64,000 nucleotides of DNA from Candidatus Nitrospira kreftii (GTDB lineage Bacteria; Nitrospirota; Nitrospiria; Nitrospirales; Nitrospiraceae), in contig CP047423.1 in NCBI GenBank assembly GCA_014058405.1, positions 3,704,501 through 3,768,500 of the forward strand. The letters run 5' to 3'. Below are positions 3,735 through 39,734 of the stretch, in pieces. The notes beneath the pieces were generated by a model. That model ran no database searches, had not been told where the DNA came from, and saw only the letters and a list, made by a program, of their open reading frames with translations. The position numbers were made by a program, and so were the translations under genes. The number at the start of each line of letters is the position of its first letter. Within the stretch, counting starts at the first letter, position 1.

Positions 3735-4367
3735 TTACTTTTGGCGCATGTGAATTTGAAACATGACGCGTCGGCTTTTCTCTCGGTCGAGGTGTCCGGT
3801 GCCATTTCGCAGGAGGTGCTGTCTTCCACGCCCGTTCGCCGTGGCTTTCTGTAAGAAACATTCATAGGCCCAAGGAAGCTTCTCGTGGATGACTTCCAAA
3901 CTTTTAGCCAACACGGCGAAGGACCGATCCTGACTCAACCGCAAATTGCGCACATCATCTCCGAGGTCATCGGTATATCCTTCAATCACAAAGGCCTCCA
4001 CGTCCGCCCCTTCCGGTCCGCAGGCGATGGTGGCATAGTGAGGTATGACTTCGGATAAGAAAGTTTCTGCTGGCGGTAGCAGTGTGCTCTTTCCAAACTC
4101 AAAGTTGAGCACGCTATCCGGTATCGTGGCAGTAAGAATGCTCGGGCTTTGGGCCTCCAGCCTTGTATGAAGTGGGTCGAGCCTGGGCTTTGACTCCAGG
4201 GGAGCGGTTCGGTTCAGGTCCGGCTTCACATTTCCATCCTCAACACGAGTCACATAAGCCGCGAACAAGAGAATGAAAATCACGGCGAGCGAGGTCATCA
4301 GATCTGCAACGCCGTTTGTCAGAAAAGATGACCGTTCATAGGAGTCCGGCCCAAATGATGGCTTCAT
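3735..4367 (-). CDS. MotB/ZorB-like OmpA-domain protein
   Basis: A 210-residue protein with one N-terminal membrane helix beginning at VADLMTSLAVIFILLF. Asp22 sits at the position of the proton-carrying Asp of MotB, ExbD and ZorB. The C-terminal half (about residues 95-208) is an OmpA-type peptidoglycan-binding domain with IEGYTDDLG, NLRLSQDR and REKSRRVMF. The partner channel gene lies 24 bases upstream on the same strand, so the pair should form an ion-driven membrane unit anchored to peptidoglycan. No flagellar, Tol or TonB genes are nearby. This favours a ZorAB-like pair over a flagellar stator, but the family assignment is by pattern only. Confidence 0.7.
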   Translation of the reverse strand: MKPSFGPDSYERSSFLTNGVADLMTSLAVIFILLFAAYVTRVEDGNVKPDLNRTAPLESKPRLDPLHTRLEAQSPSILTATIPDSVLNFEFGKSTLLPPAETFLSEVIPHYATIACGPEGADVEAFVIEGYTDDLGDDVRNLRLSQDRSFAVLAKSLEVIHEKLPWAYECFLQKATANGRGRQHLLRNGTGHLDREKSRRVMFQIHMRQK

Positions 4368-4391
4368 CGGTTTCCCTGATTCACGGCTTTC

Positions 4392-5594
4392 TCATTGCTT
4401 CTCTTGCGTGTGACTTCTTAGTTCTTGAAACATAGCTTCTATTTCTGGTTGCGAGAGCTGGACCGAGGAAGATTGGCTATTGATCGCCCTGGTTAGATCC
4501 TGGACGGCTTCCAGCAAAGGGGTCATGATCGGTCTCATAGCCCGTTGAACCTCATGAGCGATCTCACTAGGCAGATCATCAAGCTTCACCGGCGACTGCT
4601 TGGAGGTCAGCGCTGTGACAGCTTGAGTCGCCGATGTCAAGGCAGTAACCATCGAGCTCAAGCGTTGCTGTAGCACTTCCGCAAGTTGGGTTGTCCCATC
4701 CGTTCTGATTGGGCTGACCACAGAAATAGACCCTCCATTCATCGCCTGAGACGTCTGAAGGTGATGGCCCCCAGCTTTCTGCGGGAATAGTTCATCCAAC
4801 AGAGATAGGCACGTGCGATGCTGGCTCTCTAGACGTTGCCATATCGAATTTTCCAGCAGTGTAAAGGCATTGGCACAGGTCAAGCCGACGATTGAAGTCA
4901 CAAACTTTCCCGATAGTCCATTAATAAGACCTTGGATTCCTTCGATGTGGGGTCCGTTCGCATGGAGCCTGCTGAGACCGATCAAAATGGCAATAAACGT
5001 GAATAGCAGCCCTACTCCGGTCAGAAATGAGGGGAGTTGCCTGTAGAAACGAACGTTGAGTTGGCCTGCGCAGAGAGCCTCAAAGGAAAAGAATTCGGTG
5101 GCGGACCGCTGACTATGGACCGTCGGCTCAAGAAACCATACGGACTGTTCCACTGCGAAAGTCTTGCGGTACGAAAGCCATTCTTTTGCCAATGCCGGTT
5201 CGGCGCGGAACGTACGATCAAGGGCCTGGAGATCGTCGAGATCGCGTCGAGCATCAGCCGTCTCATTGGGAGAGGCTCGTTTCTTGGCCAAAGTTGGAAT
5301 GATAAGCCAGTCTTTGGCAACCTGTTGTCGTGCCACGACCAGAGGCAGGACAGAGGAATAGACCCTGGATAGGATCCGTCGAAGCTTGAATAGGCTCCGA
5401 AGGAGCATGGTGCCATGCCATAGAAAGAGGGTAAGGATACCAGTCACACCGATCCAGCTCAGCATCGGCCCCTGAATGCCGCCGATCATCGTCATATCCT
5501 GGCTGACCACTCCCCAAATATTTTCAGAAAGAGACCTCAGATCCATGCCATACGCCTCTCTGGTAAACCACGCATGATTCGCGGCATCCGACAA
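4392..5594 (-). CDS. MotA/TolQ/ExbB-type proton channel protein, ZorA-like
   Basis: A 400-residue protein with three membrane helices, at about residues 44-66, 188-208 and 229-248. The second contains LPSFLTGVGLLFTFIAILIG and the third GKFVTSIVGLTCANAF; both resemble the channel-lining helices of ZorA and MotA-family proteins. About 150 residues follow that are rich in helix-forming sequence and could form a cytoplasmic tail, as in ZorA. The following gene supplies the MotB-like partner. The start is near the CGGATCGCCC spacer; no better start is visible. It lacks ZorC, ZorD or ZorE partners within the window. Confidence 0.65.
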   Translation of the reverse strand: MSDAANHAWFTREAYGMDLRSLSENIWGVVSQDMTMIGGIQGPMLSWIGVTGILTLFLWHGTMLLRSLFKLRRILSRVYSSVLPLVVARQQVAKDWLIIPTLAKKRASPNETADARRDLDDLQALDRTFRAEPALAKEWLSYRKTFAVEQSVWFLEPTVHSQRSATEFFSFEALCAGQLNVRFYRQLPSFLTGVGLLFTFIAILIGLSRLHANGPHIEGIQGLINGLSGKFVTSIVGLTCANAFTLLENSIWQRLESQHRTCLSLLDELFPQKAGGHHLQTSQAMNGGSISVVSPIRTDGTTQLAEVLQQRLSSMVTALTSATQAVTALTSKQSPVKLDDLPSEIAHEVQRAMRPIMTPLLEAVQDLTRAINSQSSSVQLSQPEIEAMFQELRSHTQEKQ

Positions 5595-5951: not shown

Positions 5952-6293
5952 ATGGTAGCCTTAACATCCGTCAGAGTTTTCATTGGCATACTTTTGATTT
6001 CAGTTGGCATAACGGGCTGTGCCAGTGAATTTATCATGGTGGGGACCTCTGGAGAACCACTCCTAATATCGCGACGGGGATTTACACCGGCTGAATGTAC
6101 GGCACTCGTAAAAGGTGACGCCGCAGATATGGGCCTTACGTTGAGATATATTCATATACGAGGAAACACCGTTGGACGTTCACTCTTATGGCCTTTTGAA
6201 CCCGGATATGCCTGTGAGGGTGGAGTAGGTCCAGAACAGGGTCCAATCGGTACTTACCTCCAGACTCTTCATATTCCTCGCCGCGGCTCATGA
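5952..6293 (+). CDS. Small predicted lipoprotein
   Basis: A 113-residue protein with a basic-hydrophobic N-terminus (VRVFIGILLISVGITGC) ending in the lipobox ITGC at about residue 23, consistent with lipoprotein signal peptidase cleavage. The mature part contains two further cysteines (FTPAECTALV and GYACEGG) that could pair. No family is recognised. GAGG upstream at about 5937 is a weak ribosome site. It stands alone between the ZorAB-like pair and the diguanylate cyclase. Confidence 0.5.
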   Translation: MVALTSVRVFIGILLISVGITGCASEFIMVGTSGEPLLISRRGFTPAECTALVKGDAADMGLTLRYIHIRGNTVGRSLLWPFEPGYACEGGVGPEQGPIGTYLQTLHIPRRGS

Positions 6294-8562: not shown

Positions 8563-8607
8563 GTAATCTAGGCATTCGTCTATGGCTTGAGCGGATGGAG
8601 GATCGGC

Positions 8608-9099
8608 ATGATTCTGAAAAGTCTCACAATCTTCCTACTCCTGCTTCTCTTGACATCCACGAACCTGTCTGTCGCGGCCCCTACACAGCGGCAAGATACG
8701 ACCCGTCGATTATACGATCGGGTGATGGATGAATTTAAGCACCGAGATTACGCAGCAGCAATGGCAGGTTTTCAACTATTTATTGAGCTACACAGTCAGT
8801 CCACACTCGCGGCCAATGCGCAATATTGGATCGGGGAATGTCAGTATCGTATGGGGCGATACCGGGAGGCGTTAAAGTCCTTCTACGATGTAGTGTCAAA
8901 TTACCCGCTCAGCCCAAAAGTAGCCGCTTCGACGCTGAAACTCGGCCAAACCTACGCCAAATTACGTGATCCCGAAAAGGCACGGCTTATGTTTGATCGA
9001 GTTGTGGATCAATACCCGGATAGTTCGGAAGCTGAGGTCGCCCGCAAAGCCCTAGAAGCAGCATCAAGCAGCAACGAGGACCCCGCTCCATCCCAGTAA
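8608..9099 (+). CDS. YbgF/CpoB-like tetratricopeptide protein, exported
   Basis: A 163-residue protein with a signal peptide (hydrophobic stretch LTIFLLLLLLTSTNLSVAA). Three tetratricopeptide repeats follow, e.g. AAMAGFQLFIELHSQST, EALKSFYDVVSNYPLSP and KARLMFDRVVDQYPDSSEA, spaced as in the C-terminal domain of CpoB/YbgF. It lacks the N-terminal coiled coil of full-length CpoB and is not next to tol-pal genes, so its partner is unknown. The start at ATG 8608 is set by GGAGGA five bases upstream; a TTG at 8587 is less likely. A sigma-54-like site precedes it. Confidence 0.75.
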   Translation: MILKSLTIFLLLLLLTSTNLSVAAPTQRQDTTRRLYDRVMDEFKHRDYAAAMAGFQLFIELHSQSTLAANAQYWIGECQYRMGRYREALKSFYDVVSNYPLSPKVAASTLKLGQTYAKLRDPEKARLMFDRVVDQYPDSSEAEVARKALEAASSSNEDPAPSQ

Positions 9100-9647: not shown

Positions 9648-10838
9648 TTACTTTTTCCTTCTATTGGGATGTAATCGTTCAAACCACCGAGGACCGCTTG
9701 GAACGATACACCCCAACAGCCGTGGGAAGGCCGCACCCGTAACTGACGGCACATTTCCACTTTCTTCCATCACGGTCTGATATGCCAAGACGGCAAAAGC
9801 CACCGACTCAAGTGCTTTACTATCCCACCCATGTGCTTCAAATGTTGTGACAGGAATAGGATCGAACAGGGTCGTTAGCTGTGCCATAATTGCCCGGTTT
9901 CTGACTCCCCCCCCACCGACGATGACTTCGTCTATCCCACCTCGGATCCAGCGCCTGGCCGTGCCCACGGCCTCGGCAGTCCAGCGGCTACAGGTGGCGA
10001 GAAGATCTTCGATCGATAGCACGCCGGTCTGTTGCCAACCGAGCAATTCATCGAGCATCTTTCCCCCAAATGCCTCGCGCCCTGTTGATTTTGGAGGCGG
10101 CTGAGAGAGATAGGGGTGTGCGAGAAGTTTGGCCAATAGCCTCGAGTCGATCTTGCCTCGTAAAGCCAAACGCCCTTCACGATCCATGGTGGAGCGTCCG
10201 TTGGTCTTCCGAAACATGATGCCATCCAGAACCATGTTCGCTGGCCCGGTGTCGAATGCGGCGATACCAGCCGTCCCTGACCCTCGTGGGAGATACGTGA
10301 CGTTGCTGATACCCCCAAGATTCACGATGAGACGGGACCGACGAAGATGTCGAAACAACAAGGCATGGACCCCTGGCGTCAGCGGAGCACCTTGACCACC
10401 AGCCGCGATGTCGCGTGGGCGGAAGTTTGCGACCGTCGTGATCCCCGTACGCTCCGCAATCACTGCAGGTTCTGCGATTTGAAGCGTGGAGCGTATGGAG
10501 CCGACACGCGTATCTTTGATGCCGGCTGGAAGATGGTGCACGGTTTGGCCATGCGAACCGATCAGGTCTATGTCCGTTGGGGTCAAGTCAGCCGACCGGA
10601 TGACACTTGATGCCGCGTCGGCAAACCATTCGCCAAGGAGCGCATTCAGGTGACAAATATCCGACACGGTCCCCGCAATTGAGGCAGAGAGAATTCGTTG
10701 TTGGAGGGATCGTGGATAGGGCAGTGAATGGAACGCGACCATCTCCACATGAATGCCGGCTTTCCGCCGCTCGATCGAGACGAGCGCGGCATCGACTCCA
10801 TCTGCCGACGTTCCCGACATTAACCCCACAACTTTCAT
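9648..10838 (-). CDS. anmK: Anhydro-N-acetylmuramic acid kinase
   Basis: A 396-residue protein starting MKVVGLMSGTSADGVDAALV, the AnmK signature, with GSHGQTVHH, FRPRDIAAGGQGAPLTPG, NLGGISNVTYLP and FDTGPANMVLD following in order. AnmK phosphorylates and opens 1,6-anhydro-N-acetylmuramic acid from peptidoglycan turnover to give MurNAc-6-phosphate. The length is somewhat longer than the E. coli enzyme but the motifs are complete. No murQ lies beside it in the window. Confidence 0.95.
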   Translation of the reverse strand: MKVVGLMSGTSADGVDAALVSIERRKAGIHVEMVAFHSLPYPRSLQQRILSASIAGTVSDICHLNALLGEWFADAASSVIRSADLTPTDIDLIGSHGQTVHHLPAGIKDTRVGSIRSTLQIAEPAVIAERTGITTVANFRPRDIAAGGQGAPLTPGVHALLFRHLRRSRLIVNLGGISNVTYLPRGSGTAGIAAFDTGPANMVLDGIMFRKTNGRSTMDREGRLALRGKIDSRLLAKLLAHPYLSQPPPKSTGREAFGGKMLDELLGWQQTGVLSIEDLLATCSRWTAEAVGTARRWIRGGIDEVIVGGGGVRNRAIMAQLTTLFDPIPVTTFEAHGWDSKALESVAFAVLAYQTVMEESGNVPSVTGAAFPRLLGCIVPSGPRWFERLHPNRRKK

Positions 10839-24361: not shown

Positions 24362-25649
24362 ATGACAGAACCAACGATCACCTGCCCGAACTGCAAAACA
24401 GAGATCAAGCTGACCGAATCCCTCGCCGCCCCGTTGATTGAATCCACTCGCCGTGATTTCGAAAAGCGACTCGCGCTCAAAGATTCAGACATCGCCAAAA
24501 AGGAAGAAGTGCTGCGCGAGCGGGAGGAAGCCGTCTCGAAGGCCAAGCAGGCCATCGACGATCAGGTGGCCGAGAAGCTTGTCGCGGAACGCGCGAAGAT
24601 TGTTAGCGAGGAATCCAAGAAGGCCAAACTTGCCCTGCAAACGGATATCGACCAGAAGACGAGAGAACTCGCCGAACTTCAAGATGTCCTCACTCAACGC
24701 GATGTCAAACTCGCTGAGGCGCAGAAAGCACAGGCCGATCTCATTCGACAAAAGCGCGAACTGGACGATGCCAAACGGGAATTAGAACTCACGGTCGAAA
24801 AGCGCGTACAGGATGGATTGTTGGCGACCCGCGAACAGGCCAAGAAGGAAGCGGAGGAAGGCCTGAAGCTCAAGGTGATAGAGAAAGAACAAACCATCGC
24901 CTCCATGCAGACCCAGATCGAAGAACTTAAGCGCAGAGCAGAACAAGGATCACAGCAGCTCCAGGGCGAAGTCCAGGAGTTGGAACTTGAAGCGTTACTC
25001 AGAGCAAAGTTCCCGAGAGACACGATCGAACCTGTGCCCAAAGGCGAATTCGGCGGGGATGCACTCCAGCGGGTCATGGGCCCTCTTGGTCAGGTCTGCG
25101 GAACCATTCTTATGGGAATCCAAGCGCACCAAGAATTGGAGCGACGGCTGGCTGGTCAAACTCCGTGACGATCAGCGAACGGCGAAAGCAGACATTGCTA
25201 TTATCGTCAGTCAGACTCTTCCCAAGGACGTTGAGTCTTTTGATCTGGTCGATAGAATTTGGGTGACGAACGCAAAGTCGGTGTTCTCCTTGGCAGTCGC
25301 TCTCCGCCATTCCTTAATCGAACTCGCCTCAGCCCGGCAGGCACTTGATGGCCAACAGACCAAGACCGAAATGGTCTATCAGTATCTCACCGGCCCACGG
25401 TTCCGCCATCGAGTCGAAGCCATCGTCGAGGCGTTCTCGTCAATGCAAGAGGATTTGGATCGGGAAAAGAAAGCCATTACAAAGCAATGGGCCAAGCGAG
25501 AGGAACAGATCGAACGAGTGATGCAAGCGACCGTCGGCATGTATGGGGACTTACAAGCGATTGCCGGAAAACCGTTCCAAGAAATAGAAGGACTTGAACT
25601 CACCGCATTGGAGTCCAAAAACCCAATCCAACAATTGCTGCCTGAGTAA
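24362..25649 (+). pseudogene. DUF2130 coiled-coil protein, frameshifted
   Basis: The first frame (24362-25168) encodes an N-terminal zinc-knuckle-like segment (ITCPNCKTEIKL), a long coiled coil (about residues 25-210) and the start of DUF2130 (DTIEPVPKGEFGGDALQRV). The domain then continues in the +1 frame as FLWESKRTKNWSDGWLVKL to the stop at 25649, with IIVSQTLPKDVESFDLVD, VALRHSLIELASARQAL and MYGDLQAIAGKPFQEIEG. The shift falls at about 25105-25115, where CTTATGG replaces an expected CTNTGG. Joined, it would be about 428 residues, the normal DUF2130 length. A sequencing error or true mutation cannot be separated here. Confidence 0.8.
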
Positions 25650-25808
25650 AAAATCAGCGGCGATGCGTCGGTCGTACTGCTGCTAACTGCAATTCTCCCT
25701 ACTGCCTTGTTGATTTCTATACGCAATGAAGGTAGGAGTTGATTAGAACCGTCCGTTAGAGAAAACGGATCTACACCCCAATACCTATTCAGCAATACGC
25801 TAGCACCG

Positions 25809-28800
25809 ATGCAACTACCTGATGGGTTATACGATAGGCTTGTTACCGAATCGTTGTCACAGCTAATAGATGGCCTTCGAGATCCATCTTACCGCACACT
25901 ATCAACTCTCCCTTCTGAACAAGCAGCAGAGCGAATCACGGACGCTCTTGCCAAACAAGTGACTCAGCTGCTCGATGAAATTGAAGGAAATGATGCGGAT
26001 AAGGCAAAGCAACAGCTCGCCCTCGTCAACGCATTACTAGTTCACCTTAGGCAACAGGTAGCAGGAAACGTGGACCCGCTAATTGAGCCGCCTCAAATCC
26101 TCCAGGCTGTTCATAGAATCGGAGTTGCGCCGAAATTTCCAGAAACTGGACTTGCCATTCCATGGCTTTTTACTTCGGGCAAAGGCTCTCCATCTCTGCT
26201 CTCCGAACTTCGTCGTGAAATTTCCTGCTGCGAGCAAGTGGACGTACTGGTCAGTTTCATCACAGTCGCAGGAGTTCGAAAGCTGTTCGATATTCTCCAG
26301 GCAGCTACAGCTGTGAGCGCTAGTGGCCAACCACGAACACACCTGCGAATCCTGACCACCACTTACACTGGTGCGACTGAGATAGAAGCCCTGGACTATT
26401 TCGCGAAAATGCCAGGCTGCGAAATTAAGGTTTCTCTCGATGGCAGACGGACACGGCTCCACGCAAAAGCATGGATCTTCCACCGTAAAACGAGGTTCGG
26501 CTCGGCTTACGTCGGTAGTGCGAATCTATCAGGCTCGGCCCTGCTCGGCGGGCTCGAATGGACAGTCAAATTCACCGAGCAAGGACAGACTGAACTGTTT
26601 ACTCGCGCTCAAGCCCACTTCGAGACACTCTGGAACGATGGTGAATTCCAACATTACGATGCTGCAAACCCTGAGCACCGCTCCGAGTTGACCCGCGCCC
26701 TGAAGCGGGAGGCCAGTGATCAAATTTCTGCCACAACGACGTTCTTCGATCTTGAGCCTAAGGACTACCAGAAAGACATGCTAGAGCAACTTGCGCTGGA
26801 GCGAGAACGTAGCAGGTCGCGCAACCTCGTTGTCGCAGCGACCGGCACGGGCAAGACCATAGTTGCAGCGTTTGATTACCGTACTGCCTGTCAAACTGTC
26901 GGCGGACGCCCACGTTTGCTATTCGTTGCGCACCGCAAAGAAATTCTACTACAAACTCGACGAACCTACCGCGAGGTATTGCGCGATCACTCATTCGGTG
27001 AAATATTGGCGGGTGGTTCTGAGCTGCAAAGCTACGACCATATTTTCGCCACCATCGACAGCGTTTGTGCGCGTGACCTCGTCTCAATATGCGGGCCACA
27101 ATATTGGCACACAGTCGTTGTCGACGAATGTCATCGGTTAGCAGCGGACCGCTTCGATGCTTTCGTTAAATCAGTATCCCCTCAGGTCTTGCTAGGGCTA
27201 ACTGCCACACCAGAACGTTCAGATGGCAAATCAATCTTCCCGTACTTTGACAATCGCCCTGATGGATCGCCTGCTGTCGAGTTACGCCTCTGGCATGCAC
27301 TAGACCTCCAACTGCTCTGCCCGTTTGAATACTATGGCTGCGACGACGACACCGATTTCTCAGAAGTGCCTTGGGATAAACCAGGTGAGCGAGAGGCCAT
27401 CGACAATCTTGTGACCGGAAATCATACTCGCGCGAGACTTGTTATCGACGAATGGCGGCGATTGACTGGCAACCCAAAGCGGAGCAAAACGATCGCATTT
27501 TGCATATCAGTCGCACACGCCGAATTCATGACGCGGAAGTTCAACGAGGCCGGGCTACCTTCGCTCTGTATAGTAGGCTCGACAGATACTGATGTTCGTC
27601 GCCAAGCACCAGAACGTTTAGCGCGGGGGGAAGTTTGCGCGCTCGTCACTTGCGACCTTTATAACGAGGGCATTGATCTTCCATCTGTTGATACGCTGCT
27701 ACTCCTTCGACCGACACAAAGCCCCGTCTTATTCCAACAACAGATCGGACGTGGTCTACGACTCCATGAGGGCAAGCAAGGTTGTCTTGTCTTAGACTTC
27801 GTCGGCCGATACCGTGCAGACTTTCGTTTCGATCGTTTACTTTCATCGATTAGTGGGCTTTCGCGTAGCCAGATGATTGACGCAGTGAACGAAGGATTCA
27901 GCTCCCTTCCCGTGGGCTGCCACATTCAGCTGCAGCAATTGACGAAAGAGCAAATTCTCAAGAGCCTGCGGACCGCCACGAACCAGTCATGGCGCCGCCT
28001 CCGCAACGAGCTTCAGACCTATATTGCACTCCGCGGACGAGCCACTGTTCGACTTGCAGAATTCCTGCGCGAGCAAGCAGTGCAACTAGATGAGCTTTAT
28101 CGCAATCAAGGCCGCAGCGGGTGGACTGCATTGCGACGCGATGCAGGATTACTGCCCACACCTGAGGCCATTGAGGACGAATATTTTGGCCACCGCTTTA
28201 CAGACTTGCTGCACTGTAACGACCCAGAGCAAGTGGATCTTCTTGTGCGCATCGGTGAATCTTCAGTACACTATCAACGCTTCAGTGACCGTGAACGTTG
28301 CCGACTCCAGATGCTCGCATATCAGATAGACGGCCAACATCACCAGACAGGTAGTGGAGAAGCCTTCATTACTCGACTCTCACAGACACCAGAGCTTTCT
28401 GCCGAACTTGGCGAATTAGGCGCAGTTCTTCAAGCTAGAAGTACTCTGCGATTTCAACAGATACCTGGCCTAACCGACGTGCCTCTGTGCCTTCACGCAA
28501 GCTACGGCATTCGTGAAATTCTAACCGCGGTCGGCTGGCTAACCGCAACACGAAGAACTCCGTTCCAATCCGGTGTGCTTTCGCTACAAGACAGGAAGGT
28601 TGAACTCCTCTTCGTCACGCTCGACAAGTCAGAGGGCTTCCACGACCGTATTGCCTACCGCGATTACGCTATCAGCACCGAACGCTTTCACTGGCAAAGC
28701 CAGAATTCAGCCGGACCTGATACGCCAGCCGGTCGACGATATATTGAAAGCCCAAAGAATGGTTGGTCCTTTCAGCTTTTCGTGAGGCGAAGCAAAGGGG

Positions 28801-28934
28801 GCCCCTATCAAGCTTGTGGCCCAGTGAAGATCGAAAAAGCAGAGGGAGAGAAACCAATGTCCATTGAATGGAAGCTTGTAGTACCTCTACCGATTCGGCT
28901 ATTTCAAGAATTCAACATCCTTCGCGGACAATAG
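25809..28934 (+). CDS. PLD-nuclease/SF2 helicase/DUF3427 protein
   Basis: A 1041-residue protein with three parts. Residues about 110-290 form a phospholipase-D-type domain with an HxK motif (LHAKAWIFHRKT near 217, then GSANLSGSALLGG). About 310-680 form an SF2 helicase with Walker A VAATGTGKTIVAAF near 345, DECH box VVVDECHRLAADRF near 437, LGLTATPERSDG and motif VI QQIGRGLRLHEG near 643. The C-terminal about 330 residues match DUF3427. Such proteins often lie in defence islands, and the toxin-antitoxin and DUF2130 neighbours fit that, but a defence role is inference. It looks intact, with ATG at 25809 and no strong ribosome site. Confidence 0.85.
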   Translation: MQLPDGLYDRLVTESLSQLIDGLRDPSYRTLSTLPSEQAAERITDALAKQVTQLLDEIEGNDADKAKQQLALVNALLVHLRQQVAGNVDPLIEPPQILQAVHRIGVAPKFPETGLAIPWLFTSGKGSPSLLSELRREISCCEQVDVLVSFITVAGVRKLFDILQAATAVSASGQPRTHLRILTTTYTGATEIEALDYFAKMPGCEIKVSLDGRRTRLHAKAWIFHRKTRFGSAYVGSANLSGSALLGGLEWTVKFTEQGQTELFTRAQAHFETLWNDGEFQHYDAANPEHRSELTRALKREASDQISATTTFFDLEPKDYQKDMLEQLALERERSRSRNLVVAATGTGKTIVAAFDYRTACQTVGGRPRLLFVAHRKEILLQTRRTYREVLRDHSFGEILAGGSELQSYDHIFATIDSVCARDLVSICGPQYWHTVVVDECHRLAADRFDAFVKSVSPQVLLGLTATPERSDGKSIFPYFDNRPDGSPAVELRLWHALDLQLLCPFEYYGCDDDTDFSEVPWDKPGEREAIDNLVTGNHTRARLVIDEWRRLTGNPKRSKTIAFCISVAHAEFMTRKFNEAGLPSLCIVGSTDTDVRRQAPERLARGEVCALVTCDLYNEGIDLPSVDTLLLLRPTQSPVLFQQQIGRGLRLHEGKQGCLVLDFVGRYRADFRFDRLLSSISGLSRSQMIDAVNEGFSSLPVGCHIQLQQLTKEQILKSLRTATNQSWRRLRNELQTYIALRGRATVRLAEFLREQAVQLDELYRNQGRSGWTALRRDAGLLPTPEAIEDEYFGHRFTDLLHCNDPEQVDLLVRIGESSVHYQRFSDRERCRLQMLAYQIDGQHHQTGSGEAFITRLSQTPELSAELGELGAVLQARSTLRFQQIPGLTDVPLCLHASYGIREILTAVGWLTATRRTPFQSGVLSLQDRKVELLFVTLDKSEGFHDRIAYRDYAISTERFHWQSQNSAGPDTPAGRRYIESPKNGWSFQLFVRRSKGGPYQACGPVKIEKAEGEKPMSIEWKLVVPLPIRLFQEFNILRGQ

Positions 28935-28974
28935 AAACCACTGGTGCAGATTCACCCTTACTTTGGAGGAACCT

Positions 28975-29199
28975 ATGCTAGCAAACCAAGAGAGGGCTGA
29001 TCGTGGCAGGGAAATTCTAGAGATCTATGCGCGTAAGTTCGGCGATCCTTATGATCCATCCGCGAACTTGACTGATGTGCTGACCGACCTTATGCATACG
29101 GCGGTAATCCGGCCTGAATTGGGGCTAGAATTTACATCCAGCTTGAGAATGGCCAACTCACATTTTCAAGCTGAGACTGAAGAACAATTCAATGCTTGA
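28975..29199 (+). CDS. Small hypothetical protein after the helicase
   Basis: A 74-residue protein beginning MLANQERADRGREILEIYA, with a strong ribosome site (GGAGGAACCT) before ATG 28975. It is acidic and probably helical, with no known domain. It begins 40 bases after the helicase stop on the same strand and is probably co-transcribed with it. Similar short proteins occur as orphan genes in mobile regions. Confidence 0.5.
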   Translation: MLANQERADRGREILEIYARKFGDPYDPSANLTDVLTDLMHTAVIRPELGLEFTSSLRMANSHFQAETEEQFNA

Positions 29200-29283
29200 T
29201 GCCCGAATGAGGCAAAAGGCGACATTCTAAGTTTTTGAACATGCGGCAGATCCTGAAACCTCATTACACCAGGGATTCAGCCC

Positions 29284-29474
29284 ATGACCGACGACTACAA
29301 CCTCCACCGCTTCCTCACCGCCCAAGCGCCCATCTACGACACAGTCCTTGCTGAACTGCGCGCCGGAAGAAAGTCCAGATCACTGGATCTGGTTTATCTT
29401 TCCGCAGATCGCCGGGCTTGGTCGCAGTGGGACGGCGCAGCAGTTTGCCATTGGCTCACTCGACGAGGCTAGCC
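29284..29474 (+). pseudogene. DUF1810 gene fragment A (frameshifted, 3' truncated)
   Basis: It begins MTDDYNLHRFLTAQAPIYDT, nearly the same as the intact DUF1810 gene at 32448. After codon 30 an extra base (TCCAGATCAC where the intact copy has GCCAGTCAC) shifts the frame. The DNA similarity continues to GAGGCTAGCC at 29474 and then stops at a 21-base inverted-repeat motif. No functional DUF1810 product is possible. Confidence 0.8.
29388..29474 (+). repeat. 87-bp direct repeat, left copy
   Basis: This segment of the DUF1810 fragment, from TCTGGTTTATCTTTCC to GAGGCTAGCC, recurs in the same orientation at 30937-31023 with about nine differences. The two copies bracket the DUF4143 ATPase gene. 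Both carry GAGGCTAGCC where the intact gene at 32448 has GAGGCCAAG, so they derive from one another rather than independently from that gene. Confidence 0.8.
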
Positions 29475-29489
29475 TGCATTATTCATGAC
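29469..29489 (+). repeat. 21-bp inverted repeat, left copy
   Basis: CTAGCCTGCATTATTCATGA plus C. The same sequence with one difference (CTAGCCCGCATTATTCATGA plus C) lies in inverted orientation at 31548-31568. Each copy sits exactly where a gene is truncated: DUF1810 fragment A here and brnT at the other end. Confidence 0.75.
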
Positions 29490-29562
29490 GGTTCGTCACG
29501 AAACCGCCAAGACGCCAGGCCCTCGGCTTCGCCGCGAGGCGAGCGAGACAGGTGTGCGGAGA

Positions 29563-29624
29563 TCAGGGGGACTGCGTCCGAATCGGGACAGGCACCTCGC
29601 CTGCGGCGGGAGCCAGTCCCCGAC
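29563..29624. repeat. REP-like palindrome
   Basis: GGGAC (29585-29589) pairs with GTCCC (29616-29620). Inside, GGC pairs with GCC and CC with GG, separated by symmetric A-A mismatches, a layout typical of REP elements mobilised by RAYT transposases. A half-copy GGGGGACTGCGTCC precedes it. No transposase gene is present in the window. Confidence 0.55.
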
Positions 29625-29682
29625 AGTATGTTGAGGTTACGGCGGGCGTACGGCTGTACACGCTGGGCGGCTGGTATGTCGA

Positions 29683-30858
29683 TCAGCCCAGAATTTCCAG
29701 AAGTTCAGTCATCATGTCAACCAGCGGCATCACAATCACGCCATTCGATATCGGATATTGTTCCGCACCTGGATAGACGATATAGCGGTGTGTGGCTTTA
29801 ATATCCTCGCACCCAAGATGGAAGCCTTTGGATACGGATGGCGCGAGCGACCGCTTGATCTCAATCGCTATCCGTTGACGCAATCCCTGTTCGATCACAA
29901 GATCGATCTCCGCGCCTGCTGCTGTCCGGTAAAACCAGGATGTCGCCCCGTCCGGCATGCCTGACAGGATATTCTCCAGCGCAAACCCTTCCCAGCTGGC
30001 GCCTACGACGGGATGCCCTAATACATCATCAAGCGTCGTCAGGTTTAACAGGGCGTGGGCAATGCCGCTGTCCCTAATGTACACCTTTGGCGCTTTGACC
30101 AGGCGTTTTTTGATATTGCCCGCCCAGGGGCGCAGCGTCCTGACCAGCAGAAGATCTTCGAGCAATTCGATATACCGCTGTGCCGTATGGGCCGACACGT
30201 CAAGCCCGCCCGCCAGTTTCGCGACATTGACCTGCTCCCCCTGACTGTGGGCCAGCATGGTCCATAGTCGCCGCAGGGTGACGGCAGGGATACGCGGTCC
30301 CAGTTGCGGCACATCCCGCTCCAGATAGGTGCTGATAAAATTCATTCGCCAGCGCATGCTGGCCCTCTCATCATGAGCCAGAAAGCTATCGGGGAATCCG
30401 CCGCGCAGCCAGAGGGTCTCCTGATCGTTGCGTGTGATCTCGGACACGGTCAAGCCTGTGAGTTCCTTGTAGGCAATGCGCCCGGCGAGAGACTCCGAGG
30501 ATTGTTTCAACAGATCACGCGACGCTGAGCCCAGGATGAGAAACTGTCCGGCTTGCTGTCCGGCCCGGCGGCGGCGATCGATGACGCCACGCAGAACCTG
30601 AAACAGCCCGGGCGTGCGCTGTATTTCGTCAAGAATGATCAAGCGATCGGTGCGGGTCTGAAAATACTGGCCAGGATCATCGAGTTTTGCGAGGTCGATA
30701 GGATTTTCAAGGTCGAGATACACCGGAGAAGGTTTGGTGCGGGCGGCAATCTGTTGGGCCAGAGTGGTCTTGCCGATCTGGCGCGGTCCTAAAATCGCGG
30801 CTGCCGGAAACTGCTCCAGAAGCTGTACTAGTTCCGTTTCTGTGTGACGTTTTATCAT
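29683..30858 (-). CDS. AAA ATPase with DUF4143 domain
   Basis: A 391-residue protein. Residues 1-200 are an AAA_14 ATPase with Walker A AAILGPRQIGKTTLAQQI near 24-32, Walker B RLIILDEIQRTPGLFQVL and sensor motif FLILGSASRDLLKQSSESLAG. The C-terminal half is DUF4143, with a winged-helix-like segment (GGLDVSAHTAQRYIELLEDL) and an endonuclease-like motif GAEIDLVIEQG...IAIEIKRS. These proteins are common in mobile and defence regions, and their target is usually unknown. The gene lies alone between direct repeats and opposite to its neighbours. Confidence 0.88.
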   Translation of the reverse strand: MIKRHTETELVQLLEQFPAAAILGPRQIGKTTLAQQIAARTKPSPVYLDLENPIDLAKLDDPGQYFQTRTDRLIILDEIQRTPGLFQVLRGVIDRRRRAGQQAGQFLILGSASRDLLKQSSESLAGRIAYKELTGLTVSEITRNDQETLWLRGGFPDSFLAHDERASMRWRMNFISTYLERDVPQLGPRIPAVTLRRLWTMLAHSQGEQVNVAKLAGGLDVSAHTAQRYIELLEDLLLVRTLRPWAGNIKKRLVKAPKVYIRDSGIAHALLNLTTLDDVLGHPVVGASWEGFALENILSGMPDGATSWFYRTAAGAEIDLVIEQGLRQRIAIEIKRSLAPSVSKGFHLGCEDIKATHRYIVYPGAEQYPISNGVIVMPLVDMMTELLEILG

Positions 30859-38741: not shown

Positions 38742-39734
38742 TTACTTCGTGACGCGCACTTCGACGCGCCGGTTTTTTGCCCGACCTGCCTCAGTCGTAT
38801 TGGGCGCCTTGGGCTTGGTGTCCGCATATCCTTGAGTGATGGCGTTGCTCAAGCCACCTTCTTCCAGTGCTTTCGCGGCGTTGGCGGCGCGGGCTTCTGA
38901 CAGCTCCATATTCGTCGGGAACTTTTTCTTCAACGCCCCGCCGATGGGTCGGTTGTCCGTATGGCCGTCAACCGCCACCTTGTACTCTGGGTAATCTTTC
39001 AAGATTTCGCCTACCTGTTTCAAGGCGTCCGCTCCAGCGGGCTTGAGTTGATCTTCACCAGACGCAAAAAGATAACCGGACGCCAAGTTGATCAGCAGGC
39101 GCTCGTCGTTCAAATGGATTGCGATATCACCCTTGGTGATTTGAGGACGAAGCGCTCGGATCAACCCACGCTCTGCCTCTTTCAGCTTTGCCATTTCTGC
39201 AGACAAGTCGCCACGAAGACCGGCGAGTTCTTTGTCACGCTCGGCAAGCTGGCTTTCCAGACCATCCATACGCTGGTTGGCCGCTGCGAGTTGCGCTTCA
39301 AGCTCGGCGATCTGCTGCTTCGCAGCAGTCAATTCGGAAGACAACTTATCCGCTTCACCGGATTCAACTTGCATGGTGGCTAACTTAGCTGCGGCCTGCT
39401 CTCGATCGGCCTGTGCGTTCGAAAGCTGGCGTTCCAGTTCACTCACGCGGCCGTTCAGAGCCTCATTCTGTTTCCGAGCCGCCTCCAGTTCATCGGCCAG
39501 TTCGTTGCGCTGCTGCTCAAGCGCCGCAAGACGGGCTGCCCTTTCCTGCGCTGGATCGGGTGCCACGGCTTTCGTGGTGGAGGGGCATCCCGCGCCTAGA
39601 TGATAGCCGTACCATCCTTTATCGACACAGACAGTCGGCTGCTTGATATAGGAAGAAGCATGGTGCTTAGAGGATGAACAACCGGCCAGCACGACTAATC
39701 CTATCAACACCACCGATGTCTTGAGCGTTCGCAT
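38742..39734 (-). CDS. OmpA-family lipoprotein with coiled coil
   Basis: A 330-residue protein. The signal sequence VVLIGLVVLAGCS ends in the lipobox LAGC (C19). A long coiled coil runs from about residue 65 to 190 (ERAARLAALEQQRNELADEL, AELEAQLAAANQRMDGLESQ). A C-terminal OmpA domain (about 210-330) shows KVAVDGHTDNRPIG, FPTNMELSEARAANAAKALE and GRAKNRRVEVRV. It is expected to be lipid-anchored and to bind peptidoglycan. A weak -24/-12-like match lies 42 bases upstream. Confidence 0.88.
   Translation of the reverse strand: MRTLKTSVVLIGLVVLAGCSSSKHHASSYIKQPTVCVDKGWYGYHLGAGCPSTTKAVAPDPAQERAARLAALEQQRNELADELEAARKQNEALNGRVSELERQLSNAQADREQAAAKLATMQVESGEADKLSSELTAAKQQIAELEAQLAAANQRMDGLESQLAERDKELAGLRGDLSAEMAKLKEAERGLIRALRPQITKGDIAIHLNDERLLINLASGYLFASGEDQLKPAGADALKQVGEILKDYPEYKVAVDGHTDNRPIGGALKKKFPTNMELSEARAANAAKALEEGGLSNAITQGYADTKPKAPNTTEAGRAKNRRVEVRVTK

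Follow-up and report, generated by a model that had tools for sequence, protein, structure and literature searches.

A standalone ZorAB-type gene pair in Candidatus Nitrospira kreftii that may serve the cell envelope rather than phage defence

Zorya is presented in parts of one source (PMC11890865) as a bacterial motor part that has been adapted for phage defence. Two adjoining genes of Candidatus Nitrospira kreftii, here called A and B, resemble the motor part of this system. They lie in a stretch of 64,000 nucleotides (the window) and raise the question of what such a motor does when the other Zorya genes are not beside it. The original prediction, made from the letters of the window, offered two readings. 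The pair is either an orphan ZorAB-type sensor working with effectors encoded elsewhere, or a different ion-driven envelope machine.

Both reading frames were confirmed at the places first proposed, on the minus strand and with a gap of 24 bases. The features are as follows.

4392..5594, minus strand: A, ZorA-type channel subunit (PADLOC ZorA1 match, ZorA chains as the top six Foldseek matches, AlphaFold model).
4827..5066, minus strand: core of A formed by TM2 and TM3, at residues about 177-256 and containing Thr199 and Ser234 (conservation in 47/47, alignment with ZorA, MotA and TolQ).
4395..4697, minus strand: short C-terminal helical tail of A, residues 300-400 (low-confidence model, comparison of post-TM3 lengths).
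3735..4367, minus strand: B, ZorB/MotB-type subunit of 210 aa (PADLOC ZorB1 and Pfam OmpA matches, model and fold search).
4368..4391, minus strand: A-B spacer of 24 bases (compared with the spacing in relatives).

Read from its TTG, A has 400 aa. An alternative ATG at 5546 gives 384 aa; this is likely the truer start and suits many relatives. A is predicted to have three membrane helices, a cytoplasmic domain with two strands, and a short helical tail. B has one membrane helix with Asp22, a variable linker, and a periplasmic OmpA-like domain with the invariant Cys116 and Cys170. B stands directly behind A in 78 of the 80 named loci, and contig ends cut the other two. By tblastn in the Nitrospirota genome set, B is found at every standalone locus except L065, which lies at a contig end. 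The A-B spacing in relatives runs from -4 to 52 bases, with the -4 overlap in 26 loci. Six comparisons with three relatives gave dN/dS (NG86) of 0.10-0.22 (A 0.18-0.22, B 0.10-0.18). Because order and spacing are conserved and dN/dS is low, A and B are taken to be real genes.

Profile searches point to Zorya. The PADLOC model ZorA1 (PDLC00598) matches A at 1e-23 over residues 118-379, and ZorB1 (PDLC00609) matches B at 2e-31 over residues 19-209. The PADLOC ZorA3 and ZorB3 models match neither A nor B. NCBIfam ZorA models reach at most 56.5 bits on A, below their curated cut-offs (56.5 vs 100 bits), and automatic naming of A is therefore borderline. Pfam MotA_ExbB (PF01618) gave no match to A at E 1. 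When the PDB was searched with a profile of the A family, ZorA was recovered from Shewanella (2e-15), from E. coli (4e-14 to 2e-11) and from a type II system (2e-4). The same search with B returned type II, E. coli and Shewanella ZorB (1e-12 to 8e-9) and then OmpA domains.

The AlphaFold model of A, made from a 47-sequence alignment, has a moderate mean pLDDT of 69.5 and a pTM of 0.50. In the numbering of the 384-aa form, TM1 falls in 28-80, TM2 in 165-197 and TM3 in 204-253. Cytoplasmic strands are placed at 130-133 and 142-145, and tail helices at 284-316, 325-358 and 366-383, with tail pLDDT mostly under 75. The three-helix ZorA-type channel with a helical tail that had been proposed is borne out by this model, the tail at low confidence. 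In a Foldseek search of the PDB the top six matches were ZorA chains (E 1.6e-8 to 3.7e-6), followed by TolQ (6.9e-3) and ExbB. B is modelled (pLDDT 74.9) with one membrane helix at 14-44 and an OmpA-like domain; its fold search returned OmpA, ZorB and MotB domains intermixed. The profile comparison suggested with the original prediction thus sets A nearest to ZorA by PADLOC, NCBIfam, PDB sequence and fold, ahead of TolQ, ExbB and MotA. Best matches to TolQR or ExbBD would have spoken for another identity; ZorA ranks first in both profile and fold searches. A Tol, Exb or Mot identity was rejected on these ranks.

The residues expected of an ion channel are retained. Thr192, Thr199, Ser234, Glu248, Asp118, Asp121, Trp139 and Arg143 of A are invariant in 47/47 members. 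The same holds in B for Asp22, Cys116, Cys170, Asp133, Asp134, Asp138, Ser145, Arg148, Arg199 and Arg200. Thr199 and Ser234 align with Ser or Thr in ZorA, TolQ and ExbB; the MotA of the same genome has Ala at one of the two. In the relevant part of PMC11890865 the ZorB Asp packs against a Ser/Thr of ZorA. The channel Asp of B and the Ser/Thr ring of A that belong to the ZorAB core are present (D22, T199 and S234, all 47/47). So is the OmpA domain, predicted to bind peptidoglycan; Pfam OmpA matches B at 2.2e-6, with 28.4 bits vs a cut-off of 27.2. Asp22 and the OmpA domain had both been read correctly from the letters. Within A, mean pairwise identity is highest in TM2-TM3 (0.71) and lowest in the tail (0.30).

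The pair is widespread among relatives and single-copy in its own genome. In a sample of 59 genomes that includes this one, 36 are carriers: the genome itself, 31/34 of the same genus and 4/24 of the same order. The survey of the family was sampled from the phylum Nitrospirota, where 71 of 295 genomes have a match (the genome itself, 36/39 same-genus, 26 same-family, 6 same-order and 2 elsewhere). Four of these 71 were set aside. One match is weak (G077, E 8e-4) and the other three genomes carry Zorya. G281 and G264 have a long ZorA together with ZorB, ZorC and ZorD, and G275 has ZorA2-ZorB-ZorE. A pattern scan of GTDB contigs gave 125 relatives. The 80 of these that are listed with names belong by title to Nitrospira, Nitrospirales or other Nitrospirota, among them Ca. 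Nitrospira defluvii (L151), and two are titled uncultured 'Nitrosospira'. No viral copy of the pair was found in IMG/VR, and a plasmid search with A returned only two distant annotated zorA genes.

Five same-genus genomes were scored as lacking the pair. The contig of G245 ends inside B and that of G002 just past rsmA, and G015 is 54% complete. G021 retains a broken B at the old site and A is gone; G159, a genome of 2.0 Mb, has lost the pair from the locus. The pair is dispensable, since losses occur. In G005 the old site is empty and the pair is located elsewhere in the genome. Where A was lost beside the broken B of G021 there is an ORF (L221, 6777-7475) with a motif suggestive of a lytic transglycosylase. 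The B of G014 (L061, 10228-10974) is interrupted by an in-frame stop, whether from genuine decay or from a sequencing error.

The surroundings of the pair hold no constant partner. The comparison took ORFs of at least 70 aa at 52 loci, the window included, and left out L066, the locus of a decayed 26% ZorA in G001. The loci fall into ten chromosomal contexts in which A and B are the sole constant genes. At 23 of the 52 loci the context is that of the window: rsmA and pdxA flank the pair on one side, and on the other lies a response regulator of the GGDEF type. The conserved third component that was to be sought across Nitrospirota did not appear in any form common to the ten contexts. Families that occur in several contexts are few and reach at most 3/10; one of them is an ORF that overlaps B on the opposite strand. 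Nor was any transport gene linked to the pair across contexts, a linkage that would have pointed away from the original prediction. Three candidate partners were dropped: rsmA, the GGDEF gene and, at 5952-6293, a divergent lipoprotein-like gene. These neighbours are bystanders, because they are kept in G021 and G005, where the pair is lost or lies elsewhere.

Several other genes of the window deserve mention. AnmK, a peptidoglycan recycling kinase (9648-10838), and a TPR protein with a YfiO-like match (8587-9099) lie near the pair; their proximity is synteny of the main context only, with no conserved link. About 20 kb away, at 24362-30858, is a defence-like group that has no sign of a tie to A-B. 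It comprises a DUF2130 protein, a 1041-aa protein with PLD, ResIII helicase and DUF3427 that matches the type IV restriction model of PADLOC at 1.7e-191, and an AAA_14/DUF4143 protein that matches the PDC-S01 model at 1.6e-91. A second OmpA-type protein of 330 aa is encoded at 38742-39734; its C-terminal half matches ZorB models at 2.5e-17, in the periplasmic part only.

The reported lack of Zorya effectors near the pair stood up: no ZorC, ZorD or ZorE is seen among the 65 ORFs of the window, within the 25 of 53 families listed. Flagellar and Tol genes are likewise not seen among the 25 Pfam families listed first, out of 96, for the 64-kb window. The search for effectors encoded elsewhere covered 47 carrier genomes and 3 Zorya controls, 50 in all. 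ZorC was sought with the PADLOC ZorC model and positive controls; this replaced a Pfam EH_Signature search that matched nothing, controls included. ZorC was found in 0/47 carriers, this genome included, and in 2/2 type I controls. For ZorE, the control G275 scores 127.9 bits and 36 carriers have patches in the HNH region of up to 33.5 bits. For ZorD, G281 and G264 score 715 and 706 bits, and carriers have SNF2-region matches of up to 271 bits. Matches to the ZorD model also occur in 11/14 control genomes. One SNF2 protein that recurs in many carriers is encoded by the Ca. N. kreftii genome itself, in an open frame of 1229 aa, and scores 265 bits against the helicase part of ZorD.

One carrier, G001, is an exception. 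Alongside an intact A-B, its genome holds a second, decayed ZorA interrupted by an in-frame stop, and two fragments that match ZorD at 305 and 172 bits (L066, C161); these seem to be what is left of a separate Zorya system. Otherwise the ZorE and ZorD matches of carriers are best read as lying at the level of the HNH or SNF2 domain only. The pair does not belong to type I, which has ZorC and ZorD with ZorAB, and full ZorD-level scores are confined to the two controls. It would not be placed in type II either, where ZorE accompanies ZorAB. As far as the sequence tells, A and B would fall outside Zorya as a defence system, yet would work like a ZorAB motor. For the orphan sensor of the original prediction this means that the ZorAB-type identity stands, and that the idea of Zorya effectors elsewhere is weakened by the absence of ZorC and by ZorE and ZorD matches at domain level or, in G001, in pieces. 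That A and B form a standalone ZorAB-type pair kept by selection we hold with high confidence.

Named plasmid Zorya loci provide a view of what accompanies ZorAB elsewhere. EH-signature and helicase genes lie beside ZorAB in four of the 11 (L171, L172, L176, L181), and an HNH or ZorE-like gene in three (L175, L178, L179). Three have other same-strand genes (L173, L174, L177), and L180 is without annotation. In L174, from a Prevotella sp. E2-28 plasmid, ZorAB is flanked by two genes whose annotation is DNA translocase of the FtsK type, together with a 274-aa uncharacterised protein; this is possibly an unusual Zorya variant.

The history of the pair is tied to that of type I Zorya. In an A+B tree of 48 rows, the 36 standalone rows form one group (89/91) that joins L079 and L080 (100/98) to the exclusion of the other type I and type II references. 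Long branches are present. The B of L061 was excluded from the alignments. A rooted tree of short columns also unites the standalone rows with L079 and L080 (100/99), but mixes them, and the standalone rows are not one clade. This rooted tree, with the TolQR, MotAB and ExbBD of this genome as outgroup, is weak (5/27 forks starred) and puts the outgroup beside other type I Zorya; it is taken as a hint only. Common ancestry of the pair with the type I Zorya of Nitrospirota is well supported. The pair would share an ancestor with type I Zorya or descend from it, and either direction would fit, a loss of effectors or a gain of them in L079 and L080. Compared with an rpoB tree of 28 genomes, the main Nitrospira group broadly agrees, and g14 and the G022 group join f3. 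This conflict indicates some transfer or ancient duplication, as with defence genes. Strict vertical descent is not upheld, as the deeper forks conflict with rpoB. Within the main context, distances of A and B correlate with a Spearman coefficient of 0.88, and those of A and the neighbours with 0.61-0.80.

We lean, with little more than even confidence, towards a Zorya-related, peptidoglycan-anchored, ion-driven unit that is kept without ZorC, ZorD and ZorE and most likely serves an envelope task, not phage defence. A and B would form a ZorAB-type unit, expected as A5B2, in which the OmpA domain of B would grip peptidoglycan. The channel would open when the wall moves or is damaged, or merely on docking. 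Ion flow could then run between Asp22, in B, and the ring of Thr199 and Ser234, in A, with A turning around B. Through the short helical tails of its five subunits, A may relay this motion, or a change of conformation, to a partner in the cytoplasm whose gene lies elsewhere. The output would most likely be a cell-envelope task and not phage defence. That the pair does something other than phage defence seems on balance probable, because the effectors are absent, the tail is reduced, the pair has long been retained at ordinary chromosomal sites, and viral or plasmid copies are lacking. Of the two original readings, the different ion-driven envelope machine fits better than the orphan sensor, given a pair that is conserved, single-copy in its genome, without a shared defence neighbour and short in the tail.

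An anti-phage role nevertheless deserves weight, although we judge it rather unlikely. ZorAB would still sense wall damage at phage entry and would recruit an unrelated nuclease or helicase encoded elsewhere. The nearest relatives are complete type I Zorya systems, the SNF2 protein shared by many carriers could be such a helicase, and type III Zorya, in the part of PMC8565338 that describes it, has other partners in place of C, D and E. Yet ZorC is missing in 47/47 carriers, the SNF2 matches cover the helicase part only and recur in most control genomes, and there are no viral copies and no neighbour common to the contexts. Moreover, the passages of PMC11890865 on types I and II state that defence requires the wall-binding domain and the cytoplasmic extension of ZorA, and that tail is short here. 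Less probable again is a wall-gated leak valve, in which the ion flow itself is the output and lowers the membrane potential under wall strain. The lack of a third gene in ten contexts would suit a valve, as would channel residues kept in 47/47 and far better conserved than the tail; the 144-208 residues past TM3 in all 47 members suggest cytoplasmic contact instead.

The last two alternatives are both very improbable. Absent effectors, a shortened tail and the broken B of G021 are what a decaying Zorya relic would leave, but such a relic is hard to reconcile with the low dN/dS, frames open nearly everywhere, invariant functional residues and retention across two families. Slightly more remote still is the case that a unit of the ExbBD/TolQR or MotAB type has been mistaken for Zorya. 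Such a unit would belong to the same 5:2 superfamily, and TolQ is the next fold match; however, TolQ ranks after six ZorA chains, PF01618 does not find A, and the genome already has its own TolQR, ExbBD and MotAB.

The pair may have its origin in a domestication, a proposal to which we give somewhat less than even chances. In Nitrospirales, a type I ZorAB would have become a general machine, anchored to the wall and driven by ions, whose short tail drives a new partner. To our knowledge, this would be the first ZorAB-type motor shown working outside defence. A search of the literature found no report of standalone ZorAB in Nitrospira. A lineage that has long kept the motor without the known DNA-attacking parts would allow wall-anchor sensing and tail transmission to be studied apart from the effector. 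The standalone pair also bears on whether the motor or the defence came first. Model-based annotation may label the pair as anti-phage ZorA/ZorB and thereby credit nitrifiers with defence systems that they probably lack.

The closest known system is type I Zorya (E. coli 8QYD, Shewanella 8VVN, L079, L080). It shares with the pair the three-helix A, the cytoplasmic strands, the Asp of B, the OmpA domain and the A-B order. PMC12505986 describes a cytoplasmic beta sheet as unique to Zorya-type proteins. The pair differs in lacking ZorC and ZorD and in having extra residues, with the invariant D118 and D121, ahead of W139. The part of A after TM3 measures 144-208 residues (median 169, n=47), compared with 259-610 in 12 Zorya references. 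The long ZorA tail of type I, 396-610 residues in six references, is not seen in any member; even the ZorA of L079 (= G281) and L080 (= G264) has 396 and 424. A further difference concerns Glu86 and Glu89 of E. coli ZorA, whose calcium-site role we take from the title of 8QYH ('calcium binding site mutation'). Aligned via W84/W139, they correspond to Ser141 and Lys144 of A, and neither place is acidic in any of the 47 members. Among type I references, L079, L171 and L181 are acidic at both, L176 at one and L080 at none. Since L176 and L080 deviate too, the missing pair is a tendency and not a strict mark of Zorya. Type II Zorya (8VVI; L081 = G275; L178, L179) can have a short ZorA (363 aa in L178) and an OmpA-bearing ZorB, as here. 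It has an adjoining ZorE or HNH gene, whereas this genome is without a ZorE-level match and A is closer to type I.

Other ion-driven units are more distant. The MotAB stator resembles the pair in its Asp motif (DLMTSL vs DFITLL) and OmpA wall anchor. Unlike A, MotA has four membrane helices, and the MotAB of this genome is encoded by two genes of its own, next to chemotaxis-like ones. ExbD and TolR, unlike B, are not known to have an OmpA domain. The fold match of A to TolQR/ExbBD is far weaker than that to ZorA, and separate copies are present in the genome. According to parts of PMC11890865, TolQR and ExbBD share the 5:2 ion-driven plan. Four further genes of the genome are found by PF01618. 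From their neighbours and sequence motifs, these presumably represent TolQ-TolR, MotA-MotB beside CheY- and CheZ-like genes, and two ExbB-ExbD-TonB sets. The two sets (L089, L090) are similar, and their ExbB is unusually short, at 141-143 aa. Because the genome has its own TolQR, MotAB and two ExbBD-TonB, A-B is a fifth unit and no stand-in for a missing one.
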